The notes beneath the pieces are model-generated. The model saw only the letters and a program-made list of their open reading frames with translations, was not told where the DNA came from and did not search any database. The position numbers were made by a program, and so were the translations under genes. Positions 2,046 through 50,580 of a DNA stretch of 64,000 nucleotides are shown piece after piece. Source of the stretch: Aquimarina spongiae (GTDB lineage: Bacteria; Bacteroidota; Bacteroidia; Flavobacteriales; Flavobacteriaceae); contig NZ_FQYP01000004.1 of the NCBI RefSeq assembly GCF_900141785.1, positions 186,001-250,000 of the forward strand, read 5' to 3'. Position 1 is the first letter of the stretch; each line of letters starts with the position of its first letter.

Positions 2046-2089
2046 TTCTATTGGTTCGAAACTTTTAATAAACAGATAACAATAAAAAA

Positions 2090-3493: not shown

Positions 3494-3605
3494 AATTGAA
3501 ATTCTATTTAAAACTTCAAAATCAATTCCTCGATTCATTCTTATCAATTCATTATTAATTGGCATATCCAAATAACCAACTCCGCTAATCTTAAATCCAA
3601 AAACC

Positions 3606-25231: not shown

Positions 25232-25248
25232 TTTTTAAATCAATATAT

Positions 25249-25279
25249 AAATAAAGCCCGGTATTTCCGGGCTTTATTT
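25249..25279. terminator. Bidirectional intrinsic terminator between tatA and tex
   Basis: A perfect 13-base stem (25249-25261 AAATAAAGCCCGG with 25267-25279) and a 5-base loop. The GC core is flanked by A-rich and T-rich arms, so it can end transcription of tatA on the plus strand and of tex on the minus strand. Confidence 0.85.
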
Positions 25280-25297
25280 ATTTGTATACTTTTCTAA

Positions 25298-27427
25298 TTA
25301 ATCAATAAGCGATAGTTGTATTCTTTTGCGCTGCAAGTCGATATCCATCACGGTCACCATTAGGTGTTGATTTAATTGCACAACGCTATTGACATCGCTG
25401 ATATATTCGTTTGCAAGTTTTGAGATGTGAATCAAACCACTTTCTTTGATTCCAATATCTACAAAACAACCAAAGTTGGTAATATTATTTACGATACCAG
25501 GTAGTTTCATCCCACTTTTCAGGTCTTCTATCGTTTTTACATTGGGATCAAATTCAAAGACGGCTGCTTTCTTTCTTGGGTCTACTCCAGGTTTTTCTAG
25601 TTCTTTTACAATATCATTAAGTGTAGGTAAACCTACCTCATCAGTGATATAGTTTTGCAACTTGATCTTTGCGATAGCGGGTTTGTTTCCAATCAATTCT
25701 GCGAGTGGTACACCTGCCTCCTTTGCCATTTTTGACACCAACTGATATCGCTCTGGGTGCACCGCAGAATTATCAAGTGGATGTGTAGGACTGGTAATTC
25801 TAAGAAATGCGGCAGCTTGTTCAAAAGCTTTACCTCCTAACCTGGGTACCTTTTTCAATTCTTCTCTGGATTGCAGTGCTCCATTTTCTGAACGATAAGA
25901 TACAATGTTCTCAGCCAATTTTTCCCCAATTCCTGAAACATAACTTAGCAAAGGAACACTCGCCGTATTTACGTTAATACCGACGCTGTTTACACAACTC
26001 ATCACCACGGTATCCAATTCATTTTTTAGTTTAGTTTGGTCTACATCATGTTGATACTGCCCTACACCAATCGCCTTGGGATCGATCTTTACCAATTCTG
26101 CCAAAGGGTCTGCCAAACGTCTACCTATGGATACTGCTCCCCGAACGGTAACATCATAATTTGGGAATTCTGCCCTGGCAATTTTTGATGCCGAATATAC
26201 CGACGCTCCGCTTTCGTTAACCATAAACACCTGCATCGATTGATCAAAAGGTATCTTTTTGATAAACGCTTCAGTTTCTCGAGCAGCCGTACCATTACCA
26301 ATACCTATTGCTTCTACCTTGTAGGCATTTGCCAACGATTTTATTTTCTTAATCCCTCCCGTGACATCTCGTTGCGGTGGGTGTGGGTATATGTTTTCGT
26401 TATGTAACAAATCACCTTGCTCATCAAGACAAACTACTTTACAACCTGATTTGAACCCCGGATCGATAGCCAAAATCCTCTTTTGACCCAAGGGTGAGGC
26501 CAACAATAATTGCTTTAGGTTTTGAGCAAACACTTTGATGGCATTATCATCTGCTTTTTCTTTGGCTTGATTAAGCACTTCGGTAGAGAGCGCCGGAGTC
26601 AATAACCTCTTATACGCATCAGAAATGGCAAGAAACATTTGGTCGGTACATGCCTCAACATTGGTTTTGATCATCACACCATCAATGATATCTAAGGCAT
26701 CATCTTCGAGTACTTCGATTTTTACGCGAACCACTTTCTCATTTTCTGCTCGCAAAATAGCCAACAATCGATGCGAAGGACATTTGTGCAACGGTTCTTG
26801 CCAATCAAAATACTGCTGATATTTTTGTGCTTCCTGATCTTCTTTTTTGGTTTTGATTACCGTCGACTTTATACTGGCTTTTCTTTGATAGAGTCTACGC
26901 AATCTATTCCTTACTTTTTCATCTTCATTAATCCATTCTGCAATAATATCTCTCGCACCTTGAAGGGCTTCTTCTTCGGTAGGAATCGTATCATTAAGGT
27001 ATTGAGAAGCAACAAAAAGGAGTTCTTCTTCCTTTTGTTGCAGGATTACTTTGGCCAAAGGTTCCAGTCCCTGTTCTTTGGCAACGGTAGCTTTAGTTTT
27101 TCGCTTTTTCTTATAAGGCAGATATAAATCTTCTACCTGAGTAAGGGTATCTGCCGTTTGAATTTTTTTCTCAAGTTCTGGAGTTAGTGCCCCCTGTTCT
27201 TTGATCGTACTCAGTACGCTTTCTTTTCTTTTTTCTAAAGCTTCGAAAGCTGTTTTATATTTTACAATCTCACCAATGGCTACCTCATCCAAATCACCTG
27301 TCATTTCTTTACGATATCTAGAAATGAAAGGAACAGTAGCTCCTTCATCCAAAAGTTTAACCGTATTGGTGATTTGCTTTTCAGAAACAGGAATATGTTT
27401 AGCGATATAAGAAACTGTGTTCATCAA
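25298..27427 (-). CDS. tex: Tex family RNA-binding transcription accessory protein
   Basis: A 709-residue cytoplasmic nucleic-acid-binding protein of the Tex/Spt6-like family. The order is: N-terminal helical Tex domain (about 1-190; EGATVPFISRYRKEMTGDLD is diagnostic), YqgF/RNase H-like domain from about residue 320 (RILAIDPGFKSGCKVV), helix-hairpin-helix region near 490-560 (LLSYVSGIGEKLAENIV, LKKVPRLGGKAFEQAAAFLR), and a C-terminal S1 domain (GIVNNITNFGCFVDIGIKES). Slightly shorter than the enterobacterial protein. Two adjacent ATG codons are possible starts. It lies 39 bases downstream of the last MG2/plug gene and could be partly transcribed from that array. Confidence 0.95.
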   Translation of the reverse strand: MMNTVSYIAKHIPVSEKQITNTVKLLDEGATVPFISRYRKEMTGDLDEVAIGEIVKYKTAFEALEKRKESVLSTIKEQGALTPELEKKIQTADTLTQVEDLYLPYKKKRKTKATVAKEQGLEPLAKVILQQKEEELLFVASQYLNDTIPTEEEALQGARDIIAEWINEDEKVRNRLRRLYQRKASIKSTVIKTKKEDQEAQKYQQYFDWQEPLHKCPSHRLLAILRAENEKVVRVKIEVLEDDALDIIDGVMIKTNVEACTDQMFLAISDAYKRLLTPALSTEVLNQAKEKADDNAIKVFAQNLKQLLLASPLGQKRILAIDPGFKSGCKVVCLDEQGDLLHNENIYPHPPQRDVTGGIKKIKSLANAYKVEAIGIGNGTAARETEAFIKKIPFDQSMQVFMVNESGASVYSASKIARAEFPNYDVTVRGAVSIGRRLADPLAELVKIDPKAIGVGQYQHDVDQTKLKNELDTVVMSCVNSVGINVNTASVPLLSYVSGIGEKLAENIVSYRSENGALQSREELKKVPRLGGKAFEQAAAFLRITSPTHPLDNSAVHPERYQLVSKMAKEAGVPLAELIGNKPAIAKIKLQNYITDEVGLPTLNDIVKELEKPGVDPRKKAAVFEFDPNVKTIEDLKSGMKLPGIVNNITNFGCFVDIGIKESGLIHISKLANEYISDVNSVVQLNQHLMVTVMDIDLQRKRIQLSLID

Positions 27428-27466: not shown

Positions 27467-29857
27467 CTAATTCGGATTTATGTTTTTTAAGATATGCTGT
27501 TTCGAGATTAAACTTCCGTCTGAAGCCATTCCTTCTACAAAAAACTGAATGTTCTCTAGTCCAGTGTCTGGGATTTTAAATCTTCCGGTTCCCGATCTAT
27601 CAAATTGCAGATTAGGTTGCCAATGTATAGCGCCATAATCAACAAAGAGTGGATCCAAATAATTTGAATACCCAGGATTATAATATTCTTTTGTAGGTTC
27701 AAAACCTCTTTTCGCCACATAATATGAAGATACTTTATCCACTCCTTCTGGTTTTTTAAAATACTCTAAAGGTTCTCTTCTAGTATATATGCGTATGGAT
27801 CCTGCTAATCCTCTTCCTCCTACGCCATATCCAATTTGATCCATATAAATTCTTTCTACATCTATCAAATTGTATCCCCATAAAATTCCAAAGTCTTCAT
27901 AAGGAATATCATCGATAAACAGAATAGGCGAAACTGGTCCTCTTACACTTACTGGTCTTCGTGCTCTTATGAATACGTTTGATGGGTTATCACGAAATAC
28001 AATAAACTTTTTTGTGGATTCGATATAATCCAAAACGCTAAAATGCATGAATACCAACTCTTTTGTAATTTCTACAGAATTCTGCAGAAAGTACTTTGGA
28101 ATTCGGCTTCGTTCCCGAATGTGCTTTTTTGTTTTTCCCTGGATCACAACCTCTTCAAGAAGTTCTACCTCATCACTAAAAAACTCTTGCGGGATTTGGA
28201 TATTGGGTAATCCTAATTCTTCTGTATTCATACTCAAAGAAACGCTTTGAGAAAATGATTTTTTAAACCGATTGGATTGTAATTGTAAATACATACCATT
28301 CTTAACAAAACTTCCGTCTGGCATGACTGCTGCTACTCTGATTTTTTCATTTTTTTCAGGGAAAAAGTTATCAATTTGAAAGCTATTATCTTCCTTCAAA
28401 TCGATAATCCTGGACCCGCTGTTTTTGGTAGGAAAGATATACGCTTGACGAATATCCTCTTTTACATTTTGAAATTTTCCTACCACCTTAAATCCTTGAT
28501 TGAATTCATATTGTGGTATGGAATTATAATTAAATATATTATTCCAGCTGTATTTGCTCCAACCCTGCGTGATTAACAACAAATCCAAATCATATCTTTT
28601 TTTCCTATCCACTTGGTGAAAGTAGTATTTGGAATTCTCCACATATCCTTTTAAATAAGGTTTTAACCATAATGCAGATCGAATATCATCTTCTGGATTA
28701 TAAGATTTGGTATTTGTAGGCAATACTGAAACGCTCATATCAAAATTAAGTTTAGGGTCTGTAGAAGTTGATATGGCAATAGTTAATGAGTCATTTTCTC
28801 GGGATTCGACAACCAGATTAAAATTATCATTGTACTCCTGGGTTTTTATTTCATTATAAACCAATCGTTCCAATATTGGTGTATTGTCCTGAAAAAGTGT
28901 AATAGTATTGACTCCTGAATATAGTTTGGCACGATCAATTGCTACTTCTTTTTTGGTTTGATTGGACATAAATTTTACCTTCACTTTTTTCGATTGATGA
29001 TTTTGCCGAATCATTAATTCATAATCTTTCTTTACGATTTCTTTAAGTGTATTGGGATTTGTATTGAATTCTATTGCCAAATATTCTTCAAAAAGATTAT
29101 TTAGGGTCATTGCTATCCCTTTGCTCTTTGCCTTAGGAAGCAATGTTTCTATTGCTCGTTTATTAAATGCTATTCGTGCCCTATATCGAACACCTTGCCT
29201 AGGTGTTATACAAAACTTACCTATTCCAAATGCATTAGAACTAAATGTGGTGATCGTCTTACCTTGGTCATCAACAATACTACCCTCTGTGAAAGCCACA
29301 CTTCTTCCTGTTGTATTGATCAATTTAAAACCAACGGTGTTTTTAGTATCTGCCACCAAATGCCCCCCTTCAGGAAGCAGCTGAAAGTCGTATTGTATCT
29401 TCTTTGTTGTCTCATCTTTTGCAACTCCATTAATAATGTTGATCCTTTTGGTATAAGATTCGTCTTCCAAGAAATTGTTCATCCAATTGGTAGAAACCCT
29501 TAAATAATAAGTTCCACTTGTCAATGTCGAATCCACTTTTATATTGCCTTTCATACTTCCTTCGTATCCTAAAAAAAGGCCATCGTACACTTCCTTTCCT
29601 TGTTCATCAAATAGTTCTACATTGAAGTTTGTGGTATTAAAAGAAGGTCGTTGGCTTTGTTGGTCATAAGCGTATCCTTTGAACCAAATTTCTTCACCAG
29701 CAAGATAAGTGTCTTTATTAAGATGCAGATAGAGTGTTTCTCTGGGAAACTCAAAATAAGAAGCATTGGCTTGCTCTGGAGTAATCTTTACCTCATTTTG
29801 AGCGAGCATAGTATTTGAAAGAAAAAGTAAAACAAAAAGGCGTAAAAGATGATTCAT
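27467..29857 (-). CDS. MG2/TonB-plug protein, array copy 1 (most divergent)
   Basis: A 796-residue exported protein of unknown function. Signal peptide at about 1-19 (LLFLSNTMLAQ). Residues of about 35-140 form a macroglobulin (MG2)-like beta domain: PRETLYLHLNKDTYLAGEEI, WFKGYAYD, LTSGTYYLRVSTNWM. Beta-rich domains follow, including LLPEGGHLVADTKNTVGFKL. At about 620-710 comes a plug-like segment (ILFIDDIPYEDFGILWGYN, VERIYMDQIGYGVGGRG, GSIRIYTRRE) as in TonB-dependent receptors, but there is no beta-barrel. The last 70 residues are an Ig-like domain (NYGAIHWQPNLQFDRSGTGR). It is the distal member of the four-gene array and the least similar to the rest, and it has the shortest variable loop. 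Confidence 0.8.
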   Translation of the reverse strand: MNHLLRLFVLLFLSNTMLAQNEVKITPEQANASYFEFPRETLYLHLNKDTYLAGEEIWFKGYAYDQQSQRPSFNTTNFNVELFDEQGKEVYDGLFLGYEGSMKGNIKVDSTLTSGTYYLRVSTNWMNNFLEDESYTKRINIINGVAKDETTKKIQYDFQLLPEGGHLVADTKNTVGFKLINTTGRSVAFTEGSIVDDQGKTITTFSSNAFGIGKFCITPRQGVRYRARIAFNKRAIETLLPKAKSKGIAMTLNNLFEEYLAIEFNTNPNTLKEIVKKDYELMIRQNHQSKKVKVKFMSNQTKKEVAIDRAKLYSGVNTITLFQDNTPILERLVYNEIKTQEYNDNFNLVVESRENDSLTIAISTSTDPKLNFDMSVSVLPTNTKSYNPEDDIRSALWLKPYLKGYVENSKYYFHQVDRKKRYDLDLLLITQGWSKYSWNNIFNYNSIPQYEFNQGFKVVGKFQNVKEDIRQAYIFPTKNSGSRIIDLKEDNSFQIDNFFPEKNEKIRVAAVMPDGSFVKNGMYLQLQSNRFKKSFSQSVSLSMNTEELGLPNIQIPQEFFSDEVELLEEVVIQGKTKKHIRERSRIPKYFLQNSVEITKELVFMHFSVLDYIESTKKFIVFRDNPSNVFIRARRPVSVRGPVSPILFIDDIPYEDFGILWGYNLIDVERIYMDQIGYGVGGRGLAGSIRIYTRREPLEYFKKPEGVDKVSSYYVAKRGFEPTKEYYNPGYSNYLDPLFVDYGAIHWQPNLQFDRSGTGRFKIPDTGLENIQFFVEGMASDGSLISKQHILKNINPN

Positions 29858-29942
29858 ATATAGTGAGTATTAAAGTTAGTTACCAATTATTATCTCGTGT
29901 TCAAATATTTTGAAGCATTCAAACACGATATTCTTATTAAGT

Positions 29943-32393
29943 TTAGTTCCCCTTTGCTTTATTTACAATCTGAGTTTTAGAAATTAAAGTGCCATCTCCC
30001 AGCATTCCCTCGATGTGTAAGGTTATTTCATCAAGGCCTGTATTTGGGATTTTGAATATGGCTAGTCCATTTTCGTCAAATGCTAACTTGGGGTGCCAAG
30101 AAATCGTTCCATAATTCACAAAAAACGGATCGGTATAGGTAATGTATCCGGGATTATAAAACTCTTTTACGGGTTCAAACCCTTTTTTAAATTCGTATTC
30201 TAGATAATCCTGATTTGGTGTTCGTGTTCGAAGTAATGGGAATCGTCTGGTGTAAATACGTATCGAACCTCCTCGTCCTCCTCTAGAACCAGCACCATAG
30301 TTCGTTCTATCCATATAGATTCTATCCACATCTTGCGTTCTATAATCCCATAGGATACCATAATCTGATAATAAAACATCATCCAAATAAACAGCCACAG
30401 GTTTGGGTTGATCTTCCTCCTCGGGATCAGGAAGTGCTAGTTGTCCACTGCCACTAGTAGAACCTATCGAACTAACAACAGCACCACCAATAGGAAGTAT
30501 TGATATATCGGTTGGACTTTGATTGAACACTCTAAACTTTCCCGTTGACCTGATATAATCTAATATTGAAAAGTACTGCTCGGCTTTCTCTAAAGTTATT
30601 TTTGTCGAATTCAAATGAAAATACTTCGGAATGCTTATTCGACTTGTTTTCTTTAACTCCTTTTGGCTACTCCCTTTTAACTGTACTGCCTCCAATTCTT
30701 GGATATTGTAAGTAAAATTATACGGTACTACTACCTTGTTCTGTATTCTTTGTTCAGATTGTCTTTCTGAAATTGGAGATATGTTGACAAAAGGTCGATT
30801 GATTCTTTCGGATTGTACCTGAAGATAAGCTCCTGATTTTTTAAAACTTCCCTTAGCCATAATCCCAGAAATTTTAAGTTTCTCTCCTTTTTGTGGGAAA
30901 AAATGCGCTACCTCAAAAGTGTTGTCTTGATTCACCTGCACTAACTTGGCTCCATTATTAATCGACGGATAAAAATATACCTTATCGACCTTGATCTTTT
31001 TCTTGTTTTGAATCTTACCAGTAATCTTAAAACCTTGATTGAAATTATAGCGAACCTCTGGAGTGTGCTTAAAAATATTTTCCCAGGTATATTTACTCCA
31101 CCCTTGAGAGATCAATAGTACATCCAGATCATATATTTTATCACGATCAATATTGGTAAAATAATGCTTCGCATTTTCTATATATCCCTTAAGGTAGGGT
31201 TGTAGTAACATTGCAGACCGTATATTATCTTGATGTTCATATGCTTTGGTCTCTGACGGCAATACAGAAACACTAAGATCATAGGCAGCATATGTATTTG
31301 GTGCTTGCACTGCTATAGATACAGAATCTGATGAGCTGGTATTTCTCACAATAGTAATCTTGTCCTCTTTGGCATCGACAGGATTAAAAATCAATCGTTC
31401 CAAAACAGGTGTATTCTCTTTGAAAAGGGTTATGGTGTTCACTCCTGTATACAAATCCGAACGTGGAATAGAAATCGTTTTCTCTAGTTCTTTTGGTTTG
31501 AAATATATTTTCATCTTTTTTGAAAGATGATTCTTTCGGATGAGTACCATATAATTGCTAAACACTAATTCTTTTATAGTTGCCTCATTAGTATTAAACT
31601 GCATGACTACCTCATTTTCCAAAAGGTTATTAATGCTCAAACTAACACCTTTATCATGAATCTCTGGGAATGCTGCTTCAACTTCATGTCCATCTTTAAG
31701 TCTAATGAATGCCCGATATTGTTTACCTGGTACTGGAGTGATGTTGAATTTACCCAATCCTAAAGTATTCGAAGAAAAGGTAGTCACTTCATTACCCAAC
31801 TCATCTTGAACTACACCTTGATCAAACCCAACACCATACCCTTGATCATTAATTAATTTGAAACCTATAGTGTTGAATGTATTGTACACTACATGCCCAC
31901 TTTCAGGAAGTAGTTGGAAATCATAGCTTTCTATTTTCTTTGGAGTTTGTGCAGGAAGTTCATCCTTGATGATACGTATCTTTTTGGTGTACGTCTCATC
32001 TTCTATAAAATTATGCATCCAATGGGTAGATGCTCTTATGTAGTAGGTGCCACTATTCCAGTTAGAATCTACAAGAATATTCCCTCGAAAACTACCATTG
32101 TTTCCCATAAAAACTCCATCATAGACTTCATTTCCCTGTTCGTCAAAAATTTCAACCTCAAAATTAGTGGTATTTAACGAAGGTAAATTGTTTTTTTGAT
32201 CATAGGCGTAACCTTTAAACCAGATTTCTTCTCCAGTAATATAGGTGCTCTTATTGACATGAAGATATAGTGTCTCTCTAGGGATATTAAAATAAGAAGC
32301 ATTGGCTTGTTCTACTGTAATGTCCTGATTTTGTGAAAAAACAGGGAATACAGAGAGTAATAGGGTGAACAACCCAAACAGATAGCTTTTCAT
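29943..32393 (-). CDS. MG2/TonB-plug protein, array copy 2
   Basis: An 816-residue exported paralogue with signal peptide at about 1-20 (LLLSVFPVFSQ). The MG2-like domain has PRETLYLHVNKSTYITGEEI and SGTYYIRASTHWMHNF. Shared landmarks down the chain are QLLPESGHVVYNTFNTIGF, NTITLFKENTPVLERLIFNP, LSVSVLPSETKAYEH and LLISQGWSKYTWENIF. The plug-like segment (VAVYLDDVLLSDYGILWDYR, VDRIYMDRTNYGAGSRGGRG) is preceded by the longest variable loop of the array, rich in Ser, Gly and acidic residues (GSTSGSGQLALPDPEEEDQP). No beta-barrel and no T9SS sorting domain are seen, so the protein is probably periplasmic or attached to the outer membrane by partners. Confidence 0.8.
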   Translation of the reverse strand: MKSYLFGLFTLLLSVFPVFSQNQDITVEQANASYFNIPRETLYLHVNKSTYITGEEIWFKGYAYDQKNNLPSLNTTNFEVEIFDEQGNEVYDGVFMGNNGSFRGNILVDSNWNSGTYYIRASTHWMHNFIEDETYTKKIRIIKDELPAQTPKKIESYDFQLLPESGHVVYNTFNTIGFKLINDQGYGVGFDQGVVQDELGNEVTTFSSNTLGLGKFNITPVPGKQYRAFIRLKDGHEVEAAFPEIHDKGVSLSINNLLENEVVMQFNTNEATIKELVFSNYMVLIRKNHLSKKMKIYFKPKELEKTISIPRSDLYTGVNTITLFKENTPVLERLIFNPVDAKEDKITIVRNTSSSDSVSIAVQAPNTYAAYDLSVSVLPSETKAYEHQDNIRSAMLLQPYLKGYIENAKHYFTNIDRDKIYDLDVLLISQGWSKYTWENIFKHTPEVRYNFNQGFKITGKIQNKKKIKVDKVYFYPSINNGAKLVQVNQDNTFEVAHFFPQKGEKLKISGIMAKGSFKKSGAYLQVQSERINRPFVNISPISERQSEQRIQNKVVVPYNFTYNIQELEAVQLKGSSQKELKKTSRISIPKYFHLNSTKITLEKAEQYFSILDYIRSTGKFRVFNQSPTDISILPIGGAVVSSIGSTSGSGQLALPDPEEEDQPKPVAVYLDDVLLSDYGILWDYRTQDVDRIYMDRTNYGAGSRGGRGGSIRIYTRRFPLLRTRTPNQDYLEYEFKKGFEPVKEFYNPGYITYTDPFFVNYGTISWHPKLAFDENGLAIFKIPNTGLDEITLHIEGMLGDGTLISKTQIVNKAKGN

Positions 32394-32451
32394 ATGTTTT
32401 CTATGAATTAGATGTAGTTAGTTACTTAGATTATAAATGTTGTATTGGGAG

Positions 32452-34857
32452 TTATTTTATCTTGTGTGTTTTAGAAATCAAGCTACCATCGCTCATCATT
32501 CCCTCCAGGTGCAAGGTTATATTTTCTAAGCCTGTATTGGGGATCTTAAACACAGCCGTGCCTGTATTATCAAAATGCAATCTGGGTTGCCAGTGTATAG
32601 CTCCATAATTCACAAAAAAAGGATCTTTATAATTGGTATATCCAGGGTTGTAAAATTCTTTGGTAGGCTCAAAACCTTTGGTAAACTCATATTCCAGATA
32701 GTTCTTATCTCCATCATGGGTTCTTACTAATGGATATCTTCGTGTATATAACCTAATCGTTGGTCCTGCTCCTCTTGCACCTGCACCATACCCAATAAAA
32801 TCAGTATATATTCTATCCACATCTGCGGTTCTCAAATCCCATAAAATTCCCAAGTCCGCAAGTAGAAAATCATCCAAATAAACATTTACACCTGTTCCAA
32901 CTCCAATAGGTGGTGCCTGACCAACTGGTAAACTTATAGTAGTTCCTCTTCTAGTAAGAATACGTACAAATGAAGCATTGTCTCTTTGCACATTAAATTT
33001 TCCTGTGGATTGAATATAATCTAATATTGAATAATACTGCTCTGCTTTCTCTAGCGTAATCTTTTTAGAATTCAACTCAAAGAATTTTGGGATTTGTATG
33101 CTACTTGTTCTTTCCAATTCCTTTTGGCTACTTCCTTTTAGCTCTACAGTCTCCAGCTCTTGTACATCACTCAAAAAATTATAGGGTACTACTACCTTAT
33201 TTTGGATCTTTTGGGTATACTGTTTGTCTGCTACAGGAAAAGTATTGAAAAATGGTCGGTGTATCCGGTCAGATTGCACCTGCAGATATAGTCCTGATTT
33301 CTTAAAATCTCCCTTGGTTTTAATCCCTGAGATTCTTAGTTTTTCTCCTTTTTGCGGGAAGAAATTATCGATTTCAAAAGTATTATCTTGATTTACCTCA
33401 ACAAGTTTTGCCCCATTATTGATCGTTGGATATAGATATACATTATCCACTTCTTCTCTTTTCCTGTCCTGAATCTTACCTGTAATTCTGAAGCCTTGAT
33501 TAAAGTTATATTTAACTTTTGGACTGCTATTAAAGATGTTTTTCCATTTGTATTTACTCCATCCTTGGGTAATCAGTAACAAATCCAGATCGTATATCTT
33601 ATCTCTGTCAACATTGGTAAAATATCGCTTCTCGTTTTCTATAAAACCTTTTATGTACGGTCTTAGCAACATTGCCGAATGAATATTATCTGTATGCGCA
33701 TAGGCTTTGGTCTCCGATGGTAATACAGAAACACTAAGATCATACGCATGGTCCCAACTGGGTGCCGCAACTTCTACCATCAAAGAATCCGTTGTTGTGC
33801 TGTAAGTACTTACTTTGATCCCATCATCTTGTATATTGATCGGGTTAAATACCAGACGTTCCAAAACAGGCATATCTTCTTTAAAAAGGGTCAATATGTT
33901 CATTCCTTCATATAAGTCTGAACGTTTTATCGACAGTTTCTTTTTCAACTCCTTCGCCTTAAAGCGAACTTTTACCTTTTTAGAGAGATGATCATTTCTA
34001 ATAAGTATTGCATAGTTGTCCTTTATGAGTTCCTTTATAGTAGCAGTATTCGTATTGAGCTCTACCGCGAGTTCCTCATCAATTAAATTATTAATGCTTA
34101 TACTAACTCCTTTCTTTTCAATTTGTGGAAATTTCCCTTCAATTTCACGACCATCTTTAAGTTTGATAAGCGCTCGATAGGTCTTACCCAACCTAGGTGC
34201 AATATTGAACTTACCTAGACCTAATGCATTTGATGAAAAGGTAGTCACCTCATTACCCAGCTCATCCTGAATCACACCACGATCAAAGGTAATACCATAT
34301 CCCTGGTCATTGATGAGTTTGAAACCGATGGTGTTAAAGGTGTTCGCAACTACATGCCCTCCTTCAGGAAGTAATTGAAAGTCATATTGAGTGTTTTCTG
34401 AAGTTACCACCTCTGGTAGCTCGTCCTTGATGATGCGTATCTTTTTGGTGTACGTTTCATCCTCGACAAAATTGTGCATCCAATGGGTAGAGGTTCTCAT
34501 AAAATACGTACCACTACTCCAGGTAGAATCTACTTTTATATTCCCTTGAAAGCTGCCATTGCTGCCTATAAAGACCCCATCATAGACCTCATTACCTTGT
34601 TCATCAAAAATCTCGACTTCAAAATTGGTGGTATTGATAGAAGGAAGGTTATTTTGCCGATCATAGGCATATCCTTTAAACCAAATCTCCTCGCCAGTAA
34701 CATAGGTGCTCTTGTTAACATGAAGATATAAGGTTTCTCGGGGAACTTCAAAATAAGAAGCATTGGCTTCTTCTACAGTAACAATATCTCCGCCTTGTGC
34801 AAAAACGGGGAGTGAAATAAACAGTAAGGCCAAAAATTGAAATAGATGGTTTTTCAT
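32452..34857 (-). CDS. MG2/TonB-plug protein, array copy 3
   Basis: An 801-residue exported paralogue, closest to copy 4. Signal peptide at about 1-20 (FLALLFISLPVFAQ). The MG2-like domain spans about 35-145 (PRETLYLHVNKSTYVTGEEI, SSGTYFMRTSTHWMHNFVED). The middle shares LPEGGHVVANTFNTIGFKL, SVSVLPSETKAYAHTDNI and LLITQGWSKYKWKNIF. The plug-like part has VNVYLDDFLLADLGILWDLR and VDRIYTDFIGYGAGARG but reads GPTIRLYTRR, where the other copies have GSIRIYTRR. The variable loop is about 20 residues (TTISLPVGQAPPIGVGTG). The C-terminal Ig-like part ends in SDGSLISKTHKIK. Confidence 0.8.
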   Translation of the reverse strand: MKNHLFQFLALLFISLPVFAQGGDIVTVEEANASYFEVPRETLYLHVNKSTYVTGEEIWFKGYAYDRQNNLPSINTTNFEVEIFDEQGNEVYDGVFIGSNGSFQGNIKVDSTWSSGTYFMRTSTHWMHNFVEDETYTKKIRIIKDELPEVVTSENTQYDFQLLPEGGHVVANTFNTIGFKLINDQGYGITFDRGVIQDELGNEVTTFSSNALGLGKFNIAPRLGKTYRALIKLKDGREIEGKFPQIEKKGVSISINNLIDEELAVELNTNTATIKELIKDNYAILIRNDHLSKKVKVRFKAKELKKKLSIKRSDLYEGMNILTLFKEDMPVLERLVFNPINIQDDGIKVSTYSTTTDSLMVEVAAPSWDHAYDLSVSVLPSETKAYAHTDNIHSAMLLRPYIKGFIENEKRYFTNVDRDKIYDLDLLLITQGWSKYKWKNIFNSSPKVKYNFNQGFRITGKIQDRKREEVDNVYLYPTINNGAKLVEVNQDNTFEIDNFFPQKGEKLRISGIKTKGDFKKSGLYLQVQSDRIHRPFFNTFPVADKQYTQKIQNKVVVPYNFLSDVQELETVELKGSSQKELERTSSIQIPKFFELNSKKITLEKAEQYYSILDYIQSTGKFNVQRDNASFVRILTRRGTTISLPVGQAPPIGVGTGVNVYLDDFLLADLGILWDLRTADVDRIYTDFIGYGAGARGAGPTIRLYTRRYPLVRTHDGDKNYLEYEFTKGFEPTKEFYNPGYTNYKDPFFVNYGAIHWQPRLHFDNTGTAVFKIPNTGLENITLHLEGMMSDGSLISKTHKIK

Positions 34858-34915
34858 ACGCTTTTTATGAATTAGATAAGTTAGTTGCTTCGTTTAGAAC
34901 TACTTTGTTGTTTGA

Positions 34916-37342
34916 TTACTTTACCTTTTGTGTTTTAGAAACTAAGCTCCCATCACTCATCATTCCTTCGATGTGTAAGGTTACATTTTCTAATCCCGTA
35001 TTTGGGATTTTAAACACAGCGGTACCTGTTTTATCAAAACGTAATCTAGGCTGCCAATATATGGCTCCATAATTCACAAAAAACGGATCTTTATAATTGG
35101 TATATCCGGGATTATAAAACTCTTTGGTAGGCTCAAAACCTTTGGTAAACTCATATTCCAGATACTCCTTATCCTTATTATCACCTCTTACCAACGGATA
35201 TCTTCTAGTATATATCCTAATCGATCCAGCTGCTCCAGCTCTGGCACCTCCTCCATAACTAACTCTATCCATATAAATACGATCTACATCGGCGGTTCTT
35301 AAATCCCATAGAATACTTAATTCTGAGAGTAAAATTTCATCCAGATAGACAGCTACATCTGTTCCTTCCGACAATTGATCCAATATTTCTAACGTCGGGT
35401 CTTGCCCAACAGGAAGGCTATATTCTGGAGCCCAGGGAGGTAAAATACGTACAAAAGATGCATTATCTCGTAGTACTTTGAACTTTCGTGTGGACTGAAT
35501 GTAGTCCAAAACAGAATAATATTGTTCTGCTTTTTCGAGTGTAATTTTCTTAGAATTCAGTTCAAAGAACTTTGGGATTTGAATACTGCTAGTTCTCCCG
35601 AATTCTTCCTCAGCTTCTCCTTCTAATTCTACAGTCTCTAGCTCTTGTACATCACTCAAAAAGTTATAGGGTACTACTACCTTATTCTGGATCTTTTGGG
35701 TATACAGTCTATCCACTACAGGAAATGTATTCAAGAATGGTCGGTGTATTCGGTTGGATTGTACCTGAAGGTATAGTCCCGACTTATTAAAATCCCCTTG
35801 AGCTGCTATCCCCGAGATCCTTAATTTCTCTCCTTTTTGTGGGAAAAAGTTATCGATCTCAAACGTATTATCTTGATTTACCTGTACAAGCTTTGCTCCG
35901 TTGTTGATGGTTGGATATAGATATACTTTATCTACCGCTTCTCTTTTTTTGTCCTGGATCTTACCTGTAATTCTGAAGCCTTGATTAAAGTCATATTTAA
36001 CCTCTGGATTGGTATTAAAGATGTTTTCCCATTTGAACTTGCTCCATCCTTGAGTGATCAGTAACAAATCCAAATCGTAAATGTTATCTCGATCAATATT
36101 GGTAAAATAACGCTTCTCGTTTTCTATAAAACCTTTGATATAAGGTCTTAGTAACATTGCCGAATGGATATTATCTGAATGCGAATAGGCTTTGGTCTCT
36201 GTAGGGAGTACGGATACACTTAGATCATATGCGCTATCCCAATTAGATAATGCTACAGCGATTGACAAAGAATCCTTTGTCGCGCCATAAGCACTTACTT
36301 TGATCCCATCATTTTGTATGTTGATTGGATTAAACACTAGGCGTTCCAAAACAGGCATATCTTCTTTAAAAAGGGTCAATATGTTCATTCCGGCATATAG
36401 GTCTGACCGCTTTATGGATAGTTTCTTTTTTAACTCTTTTCCTCTAAAACGGACTTTTACCTTTTTGGAAAGATGATCATTTCTGATGAGTATCGTATAA
36501 TCGTCTTTTAGTAACTCCTTTATCGTATTGGTATTGGTATTAAGCTCTATCGCTAACTCATCTTCGATCAGATTATTGATACTTATACTAATTCCCTTTC
36601 TTTCAATTTGTGGAAATTTACCTTCAATTTCACTGCCATCATTGAGTTTGATCAATGCACGATAAGTCTTGCCTAATGTAGGTGTAATATTGAATTTACC
36701 TAATCCCAATTCATTAGAAGAAAATGTAGTCACTTCATTGCCCGACTCATCCTGAATCACACCACGATCAAAAGCTACACCATATCCCTGATCATTAATC
36801 AATTTGAAGCCAATAGTGTTGAACGTATTAGCTACCACATGTCCTCCTTCTGGAAGTAACTGAAAATCATATTGTACATTTTCTGAAGTTACTACTTCTG
36901 GTAACTCGTCCTTGATAATACGTATCTTTTTGGTATAGGTCTCGTCCTCTGCAAAATTATGCATCCAATGGGTAGAGGCTCTCATAAAATAGGTACCACT
37001 ACTCCAGGTAGAGTCCACTTTTATATTTCCTTGAAAACTACCATTGTTGCCCATAAAGACTCCATCGTAGATTTCTTTACCCTGTTCATCAAAAATTTCA
37101 ACTTCAAAATTGGTAGAATTAATCGAAGGAAGATTGTTTTGTCGATCATATGCATATCCCTTAAACCAGATCTCTTCTCCAGTAACATAAGCACTCTTAT
37201 TAACATGAAGATACAAGGTCTCTCGGGGAACTTCAAAATAAGAAGCATTGGCTTCTTCTACAGTAACAATATCTCCGTCTTGCGCAAAAACGGGAAGTGA
37301 AATAAACAGTAAGGCCAGAAATCTAAATAGATGGTTTTTCAT
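34916..37342 (-). CDS. MG2/TonB-plug protein, array copy 4 (first transcribed)
   Basis: An 808-residue exported paralogue and the promoter-proximal member of the array. Signal peptide at about 1-20, nearly identical to copy 3. Same layout: MG2-like domain, middle beta domains with LLITQGWSKFKWENIFNTNP, the segment VPYNFLSDVQELETVELEGE, plug-like VAVYLDEILLSELSILWDLR and VDRIYMDRVSYGGGARAG, then GSIRIYTRRYP and an Ig-like end. The loop before the plug strand is about 30 residues and differs almost entirely from copy 3 (PEYSLPVGQDPTLEILDQLS), although flanking residues are nearly identical. The 37343-37375 leader is short; I see no exact TAnnTTTG box in it. Confidence 0.8.
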   Translation of the reverse strand: MKNHLFRFLALLFISLPVFAQDGDIVTVEEANASYFEVPRETLYLHVNKSAYVTGEEIWFKGYAYDRQNNLPSINSTNFEVEIFDEQGKEIYDGVFMGNNGSFQGNIKVDSTWSSGTYFMRASTHWMHNFAEDETYTKKIRIIKDELPEVVTSENVQYDFQLLPEGGHVVANTFNTIGFKLINDQGYGVAFDRGVIQDESGNEVTTFSSNELGLGKFNITPTLGKTYRALIKLNDGSEIEGKFPQIERKGISISINNLIEDELAIELNTNTNTIKELLKDDYTILIRNDHLSKKVKVRFRGKELKKKLSIKRSDLYAGMNILTLFKEDMPVLERLVFNPINIQNDGIKVSAYGATKDSLSIAVALSNWDSAYDLSVSVLPTETKAYSHSDNIHSAMLLRPYIKGFIENEKRYFTNIDRDNIYDLDLLLITQGWSKFKWENIFNTNPEVKYDFNQGFRITGKIQDKKREAVDKVYLYPTINNGAKLVQVNQDNTFEIDNFFPQKGEKLRISGIAAQGDFNKSGLYLQVQSNRIHRPFLNTFPVVDRLYTQKIQNKVVVPYNFLSDVQELETVELEGEAEEEFGRTSSIQIPKFFELNSKKITLEKAEQYYSVLDYIQSTRKFKVLRDNASFVRILPPWAPEYSLPVGQDPTLEILDQLSEGTDVAVYLDEILLSELSILWDLRTADVDRIYMDRVSYGGGARAGAAGSIRIYTRRYPLVRGDNKDKEYLEYEFTKGFEPTKEFYNPGYTNYKDPFFVNYGAIYWQPRLRFDKTGTAVFKIPNTGLENVTLHIEGMMSDGSLVSKTQKVK

Positions 37343-37493: not shown

Positions 37494-38480
37494 CTAATTA
37501 AATGTTATGGTTTTCATAATTGCCTCTAACTCAAACATATTATCTCGTTTGTTTACCGAAGGGGCAAATACAAAACCTTCTAGCACTAGTAGTCTATTAT
37601 TTGGCTTATCTTCTATAGCGTAGTTTACAAAAGGACCCGCCATAAATCTATTTTTGACTTCCCAGGTTCCTTTGGTTTCGAAAGCAAACCTTCCATCAAG
37701 ATTTGTTTCGTACAAATAGGGTGCATACGCTTGTTCTGTAACAAATTTCCCTACCTCTTCAGTTGGAATTTTTACAGCGCCGATAGAATCTCTCATCTTT
37801 ACAATACTCGCTACCGTATTCGAATCTTTACTGATGGTATTCATAGGTAGCTCGTATATCATCAAATTCATGCTACCGTGTTGAATATCTTTACGAATCC
37901 AGAAAAAATCTTCTTCCTCTACTGCAATACGATACGCACTAGGTATATCGAGATTGATTCCTAATTTTTCTGGTAATTGAGGTATCTTTTCTAATGACTT
38001 TCTAATTCTTGTTTGTTTTTCTTTAGTTTCGACCAGTTTGAATTTGGCGACGATGGTTTCATAGTTTTTGATCAATTCATTTGCCACATCTTCTTCTGTT
38101 TTTCCTGAAATCACATATCCTACCTGAGGGGTAGCAAACTTATTGGTAAGTACCTGAAAATTGTTTTCTCCTCCTTTATTGAGTTGCAAAAAAGTTCTGT
38201 TCTTTCGTGCTAGTCCAGAAAAAGCTGTTTTTGGCATTTGGCGCATCGAAAACAAAGGTTCTTCCTGAGGAAGCCCTGGAACTTCGGCTCCAAAATACTT
38301 GCGGATGGTATCCCCTAGTTTTCCTTTCCATAAATCATTATCAATAACGACCGAAAGCTCGTTGATCTTTCCAACAGAGTGGGCCATCGCCCCTTGCGAA
38401 GACTTCTTTTTTTCAGTTTTGGTTTCTGTGCATGCAAGTAAACACAGCGCACCAACAATGGTGAGTGCTATTTTTTTCAT
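37494..38480 (-). CDS. DUF4837 family lipoprotein
   Basis: A 328-residue putative lipoprotein. The signal ALTIVGALCLLAC places the lipidated Cys at residue 17, followed by a polar TETKTEKKKSS stretch. The body begins with INELSVVIDNDLWKGKLGDT, typical of the DUF4837 family, which is confined to Bacteroidota and has no known function. It lies 16 bases after the lytic transglycosylase stop, so it is probably co-transcribed and may assist cell-wall metabolism; that is inference from position. Confidence 0.85.
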   Translation of the reverse strand: MKKIALTIVGALCLLACTETKTEKKKSSQGAMAHSVGKINELSVVIDNDLWKGKLGDTIRKYFGAEVPGLPQEEPLFSMRQMPKTAFSGLARKNRTFLQLNKGGENNFQVLTNKFATPQVGYVISGKTEEDVANELIKNYETIVAKFKLVETKEKQTRIRKSLEKIPQLPEKLGINLDIPSAYRIAVEEEDFFWIRKDIQHGSMNLMIYELPMNTISKDSNTVASIVKMRDSIGAVKIPTEEVGKFVTEQAYAPYLYETNLDGRFAFETKGTWEVKNRFMAGPFVNYAIEDKPNNRLLVLEGFVFAPSVNKRDNMFELEAIMKTITFN

Positions 38481-38496
38481 AAGATATTGTTTGCGG

Positions 38497-40116
38497 TTAT
38501 GACTTCGAAAGCTTCAGTTTCATACCTGGCTTTATACCACTACCGCTAATATCGTTCCAATTTTTAAGATTTTCGACGCTTATCCCCTTAAATTTTTGCG
38601 AAATACTCCATAAGGTGTCTCCAGACTTGACAACGTAAGTCTCAATATTGGGATCAATAGGCTTACTTTTTATGGGTGTCTTCTTTTTTACGGGAGCGTC
38701 TACAACAGGTCTTCTTGGATAGATAGTAAGTCGTTGTCCTATTCTTAAATTATTGCTTCGTAAACCATTCCATCGCTTAATCTGGCTTACTCGTACTCCG
38801 TATTTTCTTGCTATTCTCCCCAGGTAATCTCCACTTCGAACACGATATCTGATTCTATCATTAGCTTCAAAATATTTTGGCAACGGTTTTTCGCGCTTAT
38901 CGAATTCTGCCTTAGCTCTTGCATAGATTGTATCCTCGTTGGCTACAAAGGCTCCCACCTCATTCAAAGGTAATCGAAGTACATAGTCTTCGTCCTTGAT
39001 ATAAGGAATAATATCTAGCTTGTAAGAAGGGTTTAAGAACTGTAATTCTTCAACATCGATATTCATGTATTCTGAAACCTGATCCAAAGTAATCATCTGT
39101 TTTACCTTGATCGTATCAGTTTCAAAATATCCAAACTCTGGTCTTTTGGGTTTGAAACCATGCTTGTCGGCATACTCAAAAATATACATGGTTGCTAGAA
39201 ATGCTGGTAAATACCCTGCTGTTTCTCTAGGTAGGTTGTGTCGTATATTCCAATAATTGGTATATCCTCCACTGCGTCTTATGGCTTTGGTCACATTCCC
39301 TGGACCAGAATTATAAGAAGCTAAAGCCAAATCCCAGTCCCCAAATATTTCATACAACTTTGCCAAATACTTACACGCCGCTTTGGTGGCCATGATAGGA
39401 TCCATACGCTCATCTACATACGAGCTTACTTCTAATCCATACATTTTTCCTGTTCCGTACATAAACTGCCATAATCCTGTAGCTCCTACTCTAGATTTTG
39501 CTCTAGGCTTCAGCGCAGACTCTACAATGGCTAAGTATTTAATTTCTAGGGGAATATTTTGGTTATCTAGCTCTTGCTCAAAAAGAGGGAAGTAAAAATG
39601 ACTTAGTGCCATAAGTCGCTCCAGATGCTCATGTCTATTTTTGAGGTATCTTTTGATCACACTTTCCAGAGAAGGGTTGTATTCTACATTAAAAGGCGTA
39701 CGTGCATTAAGTTCTGCCAATCGGGCCTTTAGTGTATCCGTGGGTAAGTCTACATATTCTACCGGTTCGTATTCGAGTTCGGTTACCGATTTATAAATGC
39801 TGTCAAATAAACTAGAATTGTATAGTTCTTGTTTCCACAGAGAATCCAGTCGTGATAACTTTGGGTGATCCTTTGCGGCATAAATCACAGAATCTTTTAC
39901 ACTAGTAGAAGTAACCGTTGTTGTCTGTAATTCAATTCCCGTTTTGATGATCTTGGTAGTATCTACAACCGTCACCGTATCTTGTTGAAGGCCCACATTT
40001 TTTTCCAGTACAATTTCCTTGGTGTTCTCTGGATCGGTTTCAGGTGTAGGTTCCTGAGCCGAAACTGTAGTTAGTATTGCCAAAAAACAAAAAAATAATG
40101 CATACTTATTTTTCAT
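38497..40116 (-). CDS. MltD-like membrane-bound lytic transglycosylase with two LysM domains
   Basis: A 539-residue exported peptidoglycan lytic enzyme. Signal peptide at about 1-21 (FCFLAILTTVSAQ). An unstructured Thr/Val-rich segment follows, then the GH23-type SLT domain at about 175-330: KYLAIVESALKPRAKSRVGA with the catalytic Glu, GLWQFMYGTGKMYGL, and ALASYNSGPGNVTKAI. LysM 1 is YRVRSGDYLGRIARKYGVRV near residue 415 and LysM 2 is YVVKSGDTLWSISQKFKGIS near 488, both binding glycan strands. The start at 40116 (MKNKYALF) was preferred over 40125 because it starts the signal peptide cleanly. Confidence 0.93.
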   Translation of the reverse strand: MKNKYALFFCFLAILTTVSAQEPTPETDPENTKEIVLEKNVGLQQDTVTVVDTTKIIKTGIELQTTTVTSTSVKDSVIYAAKDHPKLSRLDSLWKQELYNSSLFDSIYKSVTELEYEPVEYVDLPTDTLKARLAELNARTPFNVEYNPSLESVIKRYLKNRHEHLERLMALSHFYFPLFEQELDNQNIPLEIKYLAIVESALKPRAKSRVGATGLWQFMYGTGKMYGLEVSSYVDERMDPIMATKAACKYLAKLYEIFGDWDLALASYNSGPGNVTKAIRRSGGYTNYWNIRHNLPRETAGYLPAFLATMYIFEYADKHGFKPKRPEFGYFETDTIKVKQMITLDQVSEYMNIDVEELQFLNPSYKLDIIPYIKDEDYVLRLPLNEVGAFVANEDTIYARAKAEFDKREKPLPKYFEANDRIRYRVRSGDYLGRIARKYGVRVSQIKRWNGLRSNNLRIGQRLTIYPRRPVVDAPVKKKTPIKSKPIDPNIETYVVKSGDTLWSISQKFKGISVENLKNWNDISGSGIKPGMKLKLSKS

Positions 40117-40270
40117 TCCAATCATCTTACGATACGGTTTAATTCTTTTTAAAACTATTTAGGGAATTCTGGGGTAAAAAGCATTGCTGTCAACATGTTA
40201 TCAACAATACATCAGCGAAAATCGCATTTTTTTTCTAAAATCCAAAAGATCAAGACGTTAAAAACATTAA

Positions 40271-43430: not shown

Positions 43431-46400
43431 TTATTCTTTAATGAGTTTTACAATCACTTCTCTACGGTTCGAAGTTTTGATTTTTGCAAAATAGATTCCA
43501 TTGCGCAAACCAGCGATGCTATATGAGTTTTGATTGGTTTTCATCACCAGTTTCCCCATTACATCATAGATCAGCACTTCTTCTACTTCCTTATTTAATC
43601 GAACTCTATCTTTGGATGGATTAGGAAATGCTACAATCTCTTTATCTATAGTAGTTACTTCGCTTTCTACTCTGAAATAATAGATTTTTTCGTTGTTACC
43701 AGAACGCGTGATAAAGTTAACCACTACTCGATATTCTCCTGCTTCAGTAAATGTATTGCTCGTTCCGTTTCCTATGTCAAACCAATCTGAAGTACATACA
43801 GAGTCCGAGGTTGGACAATTATCTTCTAATTCGATATCACAAGTAATCTCATCCAACTTCTGCCATACTATAGAAAGTACATTGAGTAAAGGAAGATCTA
43901 CTACCTCTCCTTGTTCGTCCTGTATGGTAACCACTGGATAACTTTGACCTGTGATGGCACAAACTAAAATCTCTTCGGCATAAGTAACAATTGGATTCTT
44001 GTCTTCTTCAACAATAGTTACTGTTGCAGTTTGTACACTACATCCACCATTATCCGAAACCACTACGTGATGGTCTCCAGCTGCTACCTGAGTAAAGACG
44101 TAATTGTTGTTCTCTACAATAATTGGAGCCTCATCATCCAAAGTAATACTGAACGGTCCGTTTCCTGCGATAATATTAACCAGGATTTCTCCATTTTCTC
44201 CTGGGTTGGTAGGATTCGTGCCTTCTACCACAATACTTACTTCTTCATACTCTTCTACCAGAATCGTTCCCACAGAGACTTCGCATCCACCTGCACTTAG
44301 GGCGCTTCCTTCGTACTCACCAGGCTCCACAGCAAATATTCCTGATGTATTACTCGTTTCTGAAGGATTTGGAGTTCCATTAATTCCCGCTAGCCAGTAA
44401 ATCACATCTGTGTTTGGTGTATTACTGTCCAATTCTATACGAACTTCATAAACCGATGTTGGTGTACCACTATCCGAAGCACATGTTGCATTGGCAATAA
44501 GCGTTCCTCTAAGATCAATTCCTTCTGAAATTTCTATCGGAAACGTAACTCTGCAACCATTAGCATCGCTAACAAAAATGGTAGTTATACCAGCAGGTAA
44601 ATTTGAATAACTGAATTTATCGATTACAAGATCAGCATCATTATTAGTAATGTTTGTGAAATATGGTGGCGTTCCTCCTGAAATGGCAATTGTAAATTCT
44701 CCATCACTATTTCCTGAACAAGTCTCAGGGATTATATTGATCACATCTGCTACAATTGGTGTGGGCTCAGGAATCACAACACTAATTACCTGACTACAAC
44801 CATTGGCATCCTGAACTAACACTTCATAATTACCAGCAATTAGTCCTTCAAAAGTATGAGCGTTTAACACTCCATCGGATTCATCACTAAAAAACAGACC
44901 TGGATTTGAAGCCAAAGCATACGAATATGGTGGTGTCCCCCCTGTTACTTGTACTCTTATGGTCCCATCATTATCTCCTACACATAAAATCGAAGTTGTT
45001 ATATCCGCTGCCCCAACCAACTCTTGAGGCTGCGTAATCACAAAAGGAATGGTAGACGGACTAACTCCATCACTTTCCACCGTGTAATTATAATTCCCTG
45101 CAGCCAAATCTCTAAACTCACTATTGGATTGTGGTCCAACAGTAATGGTATTACCAAAGAAGTTAGTTCCAGTAAGTGTATATTGATAATTTCCTGTGCC
45201 TCCTGTTACATCAGCACTTACCACAGCAGTGCTTTGTGCATAACAGTTGATAAAGGTGGAACCAAGATCCAAAGTCACCTCAAGATTATCAATTACAGGC
45301 TCTTGTAAAGTTACTGGAAATTCTACACGGCAAGAATTACTATCATCGATGCTTACTAAATAATTTCCAGGATCCAAATCAACAAATAAATTGGACGTAG
45401 CTGTGATTGGCCCAATACCATCACCCGTTAACGTATAGAAATATGGCGGTGTTCCTCCGGCAGTATCTATCTCAATTTGCCCTCCGGTTTGCGTGGTTGG
45501 ATCAGTTACTGTAAAACTGGCTGTTATGGGTTGCGGTTCTGAAACTACTACGTTTGCTGCAACGTTACAAAATGGTGCTTCGGAAGCAGTTATTTCCACA
45601 GTATACAATCCAGCCAACAAATTAGTAATAACAACAGGTCCCGCATTGGTATTTCCTGTTCCTGAAATGGTGGTAACATTGGTTACATTATAGTCATATG
45701 ATCCTGTATATCCAGAAACCTCAATAGTAATTGATCCATCACTATCTCCAAAACAAGTAATGTCTGAAGCAACCAATGCCTGTATTTCGACTGTATCAAA
45801 AGGATCAATCGAGTACGATGGTGTGTCAAAATTACACCCTGTCGCCAAATCTGTAATCCTAAATGTATACGATCCTACATTCGATAATGTGAACATTGCA
45901 GTTGTTTCTATTCCGACAGTCGCTCCGTTATCACCTGTACCTTGGGCAACGGTTTGACTTGGAACAACCCCATTAAGCTCTTCAAAAAGAAAAGGACCTA
46001 CACCTTCAGTAATGGAAACAATTACCGTTTCTGGATTATTGCATGAGATTTGTCCTGCGTTTATCGCAGAAACATCTCTAACCACTGTTGGATTATTAAT
46101 CGGAGAAGTAGCATCAAAAGTAAAGACTTTACTTAATGTACAAGAATTATCCGATCTTTGTGCTGTAACCGTATAGTTCACTCCTCCATCCAAAACAAAA
46201 AATCCCGTATTCGCATCTCCAGAGATAGGAGCTGGTGTAACCGAATACAAATATGTAGGCCCTGCTGGTGCAGCAGAAACCGTTACTTCAATGTTTTGGG
46301 TATTGCAATCTATATTTCCAATGGTTGCATTAATGTCATCTATTTCTAGCAAAGGGGCAACTGTAGTATCAAAAGACACAAAACAATCACCTGTTGCCTG

Positions 46401-50411: not shown

Positions 50412-50536
50412 TCATTTATAGGTTAGTTAATAAAATTAATTTAGGTGTTGTTTCTATAAGTGTCTGTTTTCGAAAAACATTACCCTAAAAAGTGAGAAAA
50501 ATTTTGAATGGATAAATAAATAATGTTTCGGCGTAA

Positions 50537-50563
50537 AAAAACCACCCAAATTGGGTGGTTTTT
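50537..50563 (-). terminator. Intrinsic terminator downstream of the PorP/SprF gene
   Basis: AAAAACCACCC (50537-50547) pairs with GGGTGGTTTTT (50553-50563) around a 5-base loop; on the minus strand the stem is followed by a T run. It ends the transcript of the PorP/SprF gene before the short adhesin. The remaining 50412-50536 is AT-rich, presumably the adhesin promoter region, without an exact TAnnTTTG box. Confidence 0.82.
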
Positions 50564-50580
50564 GCCTGTATATATTTTCT

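Follow-up and report, generated by a model that had tools for sequence, protein, structure and literature searches.

Macroglobulin-type proteins with a SusC-type plug at the bait site are encoded in tandem in Aquimarina spongiae

Introduction

Why would a bacterium encode, four times in a row, a protein that seems to carry the plug of a TonB-dependent receptor and no barrel for that plug to close? The question is raised by a stretch of 64,000 nucleotides from Aquimarina spongiae (Bacteroidota, Flavobacteriaceae; contig NZ_FQYP01000004.1, positions 186,001 to 250,000) that we call the window. On its minus strand, at 27467-37342, four open reading frames (ORFs) of 796, 816, 801 and 808 aa lie head to tail, separated by 85, 58 and 58 bp. 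A first-pass annotation made without database searches had described them as a one-strand tandem array of four exported proteins that join an MG2 domain of the alpha-2-macroglobulin (A2M) type to a TonB-receptor plug. The arrangement was borne out, as all four frames are intact and the proteins are homologous from end to end. Here we report that these proteins are macroglobulin (MG) scaffolds of the A2M superfamily with a plug in the insert of their MG6 domain, the site of the bait region in A2M and of the anaphylatoxin in complement. We tentatively favor the idea that the four proteins, which are predicted to be exported, insert this SusC-type plug from the periplasm into a barrel encoded by another gene.

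The plug is housed in a split MG6 domain

The Pfam MG2 model (PF01835) matched all four copies below its cut-off (23.0-27.2 versus 32.8 bits) and one relative, L133, above it, in agreement with the earlier MG2 call. The MG2 region of copy 4 also gave a very weak profile match to residues 112-198 of the complement C4 beta chain (E 2.2). The AlphaFold model of copy 4 (mean pLDDT 87) contains the key-ring series of MG domains. In it MG6 is interrupted by an insert of about 380 residues that includes the LNK region and holds the plug, with MG6 strands at residues 348-380 before the insert and at 762-807 after it. The region that had been taken for a separate C-terminal Ig-like domain is, in both the model and the alignment, the second half of MG6. 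C3 beta chains, which we take the C3 chains of 632-640 residues to be, aligned to the window family only up to residue 447. Because the chains stop after MG6 they have no thioester half: the thioester domain with its Cys-x-Glu-Gln motif is absent from all four, as are MG7, CUB and the receptor-binding domain (MG8), and the alignment stops at template column 889 of 1527. We assume that residues ~824 of C3 and ~787 of A2M lie near the end of MG6. By fold and sequence the four proteins are members of the A2M superfamily that lack the features just named.

Although Pfam found no plug in the four single window sequences, the plug called in the first-pass annotation was recovered with a family profile built from 95 homologs, by a match in the PDB and with hhalign. 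The plug region of the profile (about 547-745) matched ten other ORFs of the same genome at E 1e-7 to 0.006, nine of them 977-1181 aa long and one 804 aa. The profile also matched a SusC homolog in the PDB (chain 5t3r_D, residues 91-238, E 0.0018); a phmmer search of the PDB with copy 4 gave no match. Aligned by hhalign to the N-termini of six TonB receptors from the same genome, the insert scored 97.8% (E 7.7e-13) over the Ton-box and plug part only. PF07715 matched the relative L133 at 9.3e-16, and the plug alone gave weak matches in fold searches. Between the MG part and the plug sits a carboxypeptidase-regulatory-like beta-sandwich, at the same place as a PF13620 match just below cut-off in another relative (L134, residues 460-520). 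It is followed by a Ton-box-like segment whose Leu568 is present in all 95 aligned homologs and whose pattern, L-[DEN]-x-[VI], is one of the best conserved features in the insert. Three of the four window copies differ here from DEVVVTG, the Ton box of SusC according to PMC7782687.

As the first-pass annotation had held, no 22-strand barrel was found in the same chain, either by Pfam on the four copies or in the AlphaFold model, which ends about 90 residues beyond the plug. The window proteins carry a receptor plug yet are not TonB receptors. Weak matches to type IX sorting tails (PF18962, PF13585 and TIGR04183) fell at residues 70-124, inside the MG2 domain, and were rejected as artifacts; no type IX C-terminal sorting domain is present in the window proteins by Pfam and NCBIfam. 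We predict, as had been claimed before, that the four proteins are exported. By eye, and not with a signal-peptide program, the start of each copy looks like a signal peptide that stops just ahead of a Gln. All 95 aligned homologs have a Gln somewhere in residues 18-36, and a lipobox-like motif occurs in one of the 95.

Full-length relatives adjoin a SusC-like barrel without a detected plug

The window family has distant relatives of about 1500 aa. In two of them (L127 and L128) Pfam recognized MG2, a plug (PF07715, E 2.5e-14 and 1.6e-17), PF00207, a thioester domain, and bMG10 or a receptor domain; six further full-length relatives show a similar order. The window family aligns with the full-length relatives through the plug into PF00207 (721 columns, E 6.1e-71), residues 155-788 matching 237-898 of the L128 protein continuously. 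One MG domain that follows MG2 in the full-length relatives is missing from the window proteins, where the alignment has a gap. This alignment independently places the plug at the bait site and the end of the window proteins at the end of MG6.

We examined the surroundings of 15 full-length plug-A2Ms, nine in one set and six in another, one of the six from another family of the order; a partial one at a contig edge (G079) stands outside the 15. In all 15 a SusC-like gene (806-996 aa) lies 2-5 bp upstream on the same strand. The pair at L128:1645-9018 consists of a barrel gene (1645-4410), its product identical to a Pustulibacterium marinum protein, and a plug-A2M gene (4414-9018), and matching pairs lie in L146-L153 and L158-L163. 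Pfam found no plug in the 15 barrels (nine searched at E <= 0.1, six at E <= 0.01). The NCBIfam SusC model matched, below its cut-off, the nine barrels tested (E 1e-32 to 2.5e-53), none of which gave a match to the plug signature TIGR04057; one control receptor matched both. By a profile of ordinary receptor N-termini, which comprise an extension and a plug, the A2Ms have the plug without the extension (15/15), the barrels have the extension without the plug (14/15, with neither in the remaining one), and control receptors have both (99/99). The 21 closest barrel homologs, a set that includes the L128 barrel and probably the L162 barrel, have the extension without the plug; among the 120 of 526 barrel matches listed, the top 21 lack PF07715 and the remaining 99 have it by Pfam annotation. 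All 15 plug-A2Ms have the thioester motif GC-x-EQ. The Ton-box-like LDEVVVVG, which resembles the DEVVVTG of SusC, is on the A2M in nine of the nine aligned (by eye) and in four of the six others (by pattern). There is a single contrasting case (G324, L154), a thioester A2M in which the plug-A2M profile passes over the insert and which has no adjoining plugless barrel. The pairs are uncommon, with at least 14 in 397 genomes of the family and at least 3 in 296 of the phylum.

From these sequences the pair looks like a TonB receptor split over two genes, with the extension and barrel on one and the plug on the other, and it seems to us a more surprising object than the array itself. In the open-licence literature, a body that leaves most subscription journals and bioRxiv outside, no account of either the MG-plug proteins or the plugless SusC/A2M pair came to light.

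Two other genes stand next to such pairs. Directly upstream of the pair in L163 is one for a 771-aa plug protein without a barrel, with a von Willebrand A domain and a type IX sorting tail (391-2706). Just upstream of the pair in L150 is one for a 156-aa protein (3623-4093) with two weak plug-end matches (638-705 and 636-696; 7-11 bits).

The plug may act in trans

Because the full-length plug-A2Ms are encoded directly behind a SusC-like barrel without a detected plug, we suggest that plugs of this kind work in trans. Each window protein would be a periplasmic MG scaffold that offers its plug to an outer-membrane barrel. TonB, acting through the Ton-box-like segment before the plug, would pull the MG-plug protein and not the barrel, and the MG-plug protein would serve as a removable, scaffold-mounted gate. 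There are precedents for parts of this scheme: an FpvA barrel that lacks its plug is restored by a soluble FpvA plug (PMC10994204), and in vitro the plugs of SusC leave the barrel whole (PMC7782687). We infer export, docking, the action of TonB and the transfer from the full-length relatives to the array. The earlier suggestion of a plug that might bind to a receptor produced elsewhere gains support from the 15 pairs. A wider proposal, which we regard as possible but doubtful, is that Bacteroidota have split TonB receptors whose plug has left the SusC barrel for a macroglobulin bait site, that a thioester trap lying behind the pore is sprung when the plug in the barrel is pulled, displaced or cut, and that the array is a trap-less, multi-copy branch whose exchangeable, scaffold-mounted plugs would serve barrels encoded elsewhere.

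A limit on this reading for the array is that no plugless SusC of the pair family was found in the genome of A. spongiae itself (5.35 Mb in 28 contigs). No full-length plug-A2M was found there either. PF00593 gave 44 matches in this genome, 41 of them with a Pfam plug in the same ORF (assigned by position, by eye); among the other three, one (L164) has a plug by profile, one (L166) does not encode a receptor and one (L165) is without a plug. This survey is not exhaustive because PF00593 misses most plugless SusC barrels.

Several further proteins of this genome, or of loci elsewhere, came up in the search for a partner. L165:1358-3100 encodes a 580-aa receptor-like barrel without a recognizable plug, lies behind a TPR-like gene and is nearly universal in the family (181 of 199 genomes). 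Three uncertain barrel-profile matches (L167-L169) turned out to be a DUF4139 protein and two carboxypeptidase-regulatory/DUF5686 proteins of about 830 aa; the two DUF5686 proteins, at L168:1163-3655 and L169:951-3446, have no plug match, and the latter has a Ton-box-like LDEVVIYKG after its first domain. At many loci a TonB receptor convergent to the family lies beside groEL; we do not take it as the partner because a plug of its own appears to be present in the one sequence read by eye.

A contrast is offered by the only thioester A2M that was found in this genome (L170, 1842 aa): its macroglobulin domains are those usual in bacteria, with a bait region domain and no plug. Profile searches of the genome found four full-length family members and two short distant ones. 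Its short proteins, of 580 and 600 aa, have an N-terminal MG-like domain by profile, nothing by Pfam, plug-like and MG6-like ends by eye, and no barrel. Their operons (L119:3718-6739 with L123:531-4509; L124:1238-6383 with L120:1559-4531) contain a TonB receptor with its own plug and one to three DUF4249-like genes, one recognized by Pfam and the rest by eye. As recounted in PMC11003636, DUF4249 has been proposed to work with the TonB transporter that it adjoins.

Divergence of the copies and alternative explanations

The main rival to plugging in trans is a decoy or bait role, in which the MG scaffold would hold out a plug-like target in the periplasm, and proteases, bacteriocins or phage proteins that enter via TonB receptors would attack it in place of the true receptors. 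The plug does sit at the A2M bait and complement anaphylatoxin site, and copies 3 and 4, which are 84-85% identical, are least similar in the plug (74%) and in the first half of MG6 (71%) against 85-95% elsewhere, as a decoy might be. We nevertheless consider this role unlikely. The window proteins have neither the thioester domain nor the moving and trapping MG7, CUB and MG8 domains, so that covalent trapping by the A2M route is not available to them. Selection is purifying and not diversifying: the ratio of nonsynonymous to synonymous divergence (dN/dS) is below 1 wherever dS is unsaturated, with a maximum of 0.72 in a linker, and for copies 3 and 4 it is 0.03-0.19 by region. Because dS is saturated in many comparisons, the information comes mainly from copies 3 and 4. 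By Pfam name none of the ten flanking genes is a known defense gene, although no dedicated defense search was made. Two ideas of the first-pass annotation are not supported by these results, namely selection for variety and a presented ligand or effector of envelope defense, for which only the kinship to A2M speaks.

If not variety, what would four copies be for? Identity across the whole array spans 50-85%, copy 1 being 50-53% identical to the other three. Recent amplification for dosage is not supported because copies 3 and 4 already have dS of about 0.3-1.9 by region. Among the 95 homologs, mean pairwise identity is highest in the LNK helices (residues 386-447, 54%) and lowest in the linker (14%); the sandwich and plug of the insert are also low (27-28%). 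To judge by their sequences, the four copies are old and constrained. That they have diverged under purifying selection points less to dosage than to several barrels or conditions that they may serve.

An assembly role is somewhat less probable than a decoy. While the outer membrane is being built, such factors would occupy or stabilize the barrels of TonB receptors, or take in barrels that lack a plug. This would fit the setting of the family in the 61 loci L021-L081 (these include one titled Aquimarina, L042, without groEL, and several short contigs), in 48 of which it comes after groEL on the same strand. In 44 of these 48 loci it is the next ORF of at least 120 aa after groEL, with a median gap of 134 bp. 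The block often also holds secG, a probable lptE, miaB and a sigma-54-type regulator; these names and that of groEL are our presumptive readings, made by eye. By contrast, the Aquimarina loci L007-L020 and the window lack the groEL link and have tex, DUF4837 and mltD instead; tex follows the family in 11 of these 14 loci and the other three reach contig edges. The wider family, full-length relatives included, was matched (E <= 1e-30) in at least 81 of 199 family genomes, too few for a general biogenesis factor; it was also matched in at least 36 of 198 phylum genomes. These counts, like those of the pairs, are lower bounds with 2-5 candidates per genome scored.

Improbable, in our view, is a direct contact of the Ton-box-like segment and plug with TonB that involves no barrel and would let the protein sense TonB or compete for it. 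The conservation of L-[DEN]-x-[VI] would agree with this, but a pure TonB ligand has no need of the plug fold that is kept, and a barrel gene adjoins every full-length relative examined. Decay of longer A2Ms, to which the C-terminal truncation relative to the full-length plug-A2Ms might point, is very improbable given four intact frames, the low dN/dS between copies 3 and 4 and listed homologs in the same length class (754-828 aa).

Genomic setting and spread of the family

The features of the array and its flanks are collected in Table 1. Of the terminator-like hairpins on the minus strand, one of the two longest precedes the transglycosylase gene (40295) and the other follows tex (25281-25247); overall the terminator scan found 16 sites where 10.2 were expected by chance. 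It is plausible from this layout that mltD, the DUF4837 gene, the array and tex form a single predicted transcription unit. No SusD-type or other lid gene was found by Pfam among the ten flanking genes scanned.

Table 1. Positions of the array, its flanking features and the domains of copy 4 in the window
Feature	Position	Strand	Remark
Copy 1, 796-aa MG-plug protein	27467..29857	-	Ton-box-like LEEVVIQG
Copy 2, 816-aa MG-plug protein	29943..32393	-	Ton-box-like LEAVQLKG
Copy 3, 801-aa MG-plug protein	32452..34857	-	Ton-box-like LETVELKG
Copy 4, 808-aa MG-plug protein	34916..37342	-	copy used for AlphaFold model
MG2-type domain, copy 4 residues 41-143	36914..37222	-	PF01835, sub-threshold, 27.2 bits; AlphaFold strands
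Second MG domain (PEGG motif), copy 4 residues 158-242	36617..36871	-	model and alignment
Third MG domain, copy 4 residues 252-338	36329..36589	-	model and alignment
Split MG6, first half (three strands), copy 4 residues 348-380	36203..36301	-	model and alignment
Helices at LNK place, copy 4 residues 392-443	36014..36169	-	AlphaFold model
Carboxypeptidase-regulatory-like beta-sandwich, copy 4 residues 456-528	35759..35977	-	AlphaFold model
Ton-box-like LETVELE, copy 4 residues 568-574	35621..35641	-	homolog alignment
Plug domain, copy 4 residues 585-716	35195..35590	-	profile searches, hhalign
Split MG6, second half, copy 4 residues 755-808	34919..35080	-	first half of PF00207 in full-length relatives
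DUF4837 gene, upstream flank	37494..38480	-	conserved neighbor in Aquimarina
LysM/lytic transglycosylase gene (mltD), upstream flank	38497..40125	-	possibly first of transcription unit
tex, downstream flank	25298..27427	-	conserved neighbor in Aquimarina
15-pair terminator-like hairpin 3' of tex	25247..25281	-	candidate end of transcription unit

One search gave at least 184 homologs at E <= 0.001, which puts the family beyond a chance resemblance, and among the matches listed the closest named proteins are from Aquimarina. Loci were compared in the best 80 of 168 stretches from named genomes, which amount to 75 distinct loci. With fragments included, 42 of these have one copy, 22 have two, eight have three, two have four and one has seven. 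Three tandem relatives of about 725 aa are encoded at L139:1306-8212; there the profile skips about 150-245, the second MG domain. Elsewhere in the window, the stretch 43431-51537 holds a gene for a 2326-aa protein with a PA domain, SprB repeats and a type IX tail, which adjoins a PorP/SprF gene, and a 4110-aa ORF lies at 51622-63954.

Relation to known systems

Besides the bait region and the anaphylatoxin, the plug makes a third kind of cargo for the macroglobulin bait site, one that ties the A2M superfamily to TonB transport. If plug and barrel meet in trans, an outer-membrane pore would be a concrete sensor for bacterial A2Ms, and what they guard against would become testable. The domain order described here also helps to interpret the structure of proteins that now go under the names 'TonB-dependent receptor plug domain-containing' or 'hypothetical'.

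With A2M, C3/C4/C5 and the bacterial ECAM and SaA2M, the window proteins share the order of MG domains, an MG6 split by a long insert and a conserved helical, LNK-like start of that insert. Unlike these, they have a plug in place of a bait region or anaphylatoxin, four MG domains, and no MG7, CUB, thioester or MG8. SusC/RagA transporters have the same succession of carboxypeptidase-regulatory-like domain, Ton-box-like segment and plug, whereas the window proteins lack the 22-strand barrel and house the plug inside an MG domain. The closest informative relatives are the full-length plug-A2M/barrel pairs, which have the same order of MG domains, LNK, plug and MG6 but keep a thioester half, one extra MG domain and an adjoining barrel; the array has neither thioester nor barrel. 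The 580- and 600-aa proteins of the same genome resemble the array in their MG-like start and lack of a barrel and differ in being shorter and in lying beside a receptor with its own plug and DUF4249 genes. A functional analogue only is the Plug of type IX SprA (Fjoh_1759), which according to PMC9127263 is likewise a protein of its own and blocks a pore in the outer membrane.
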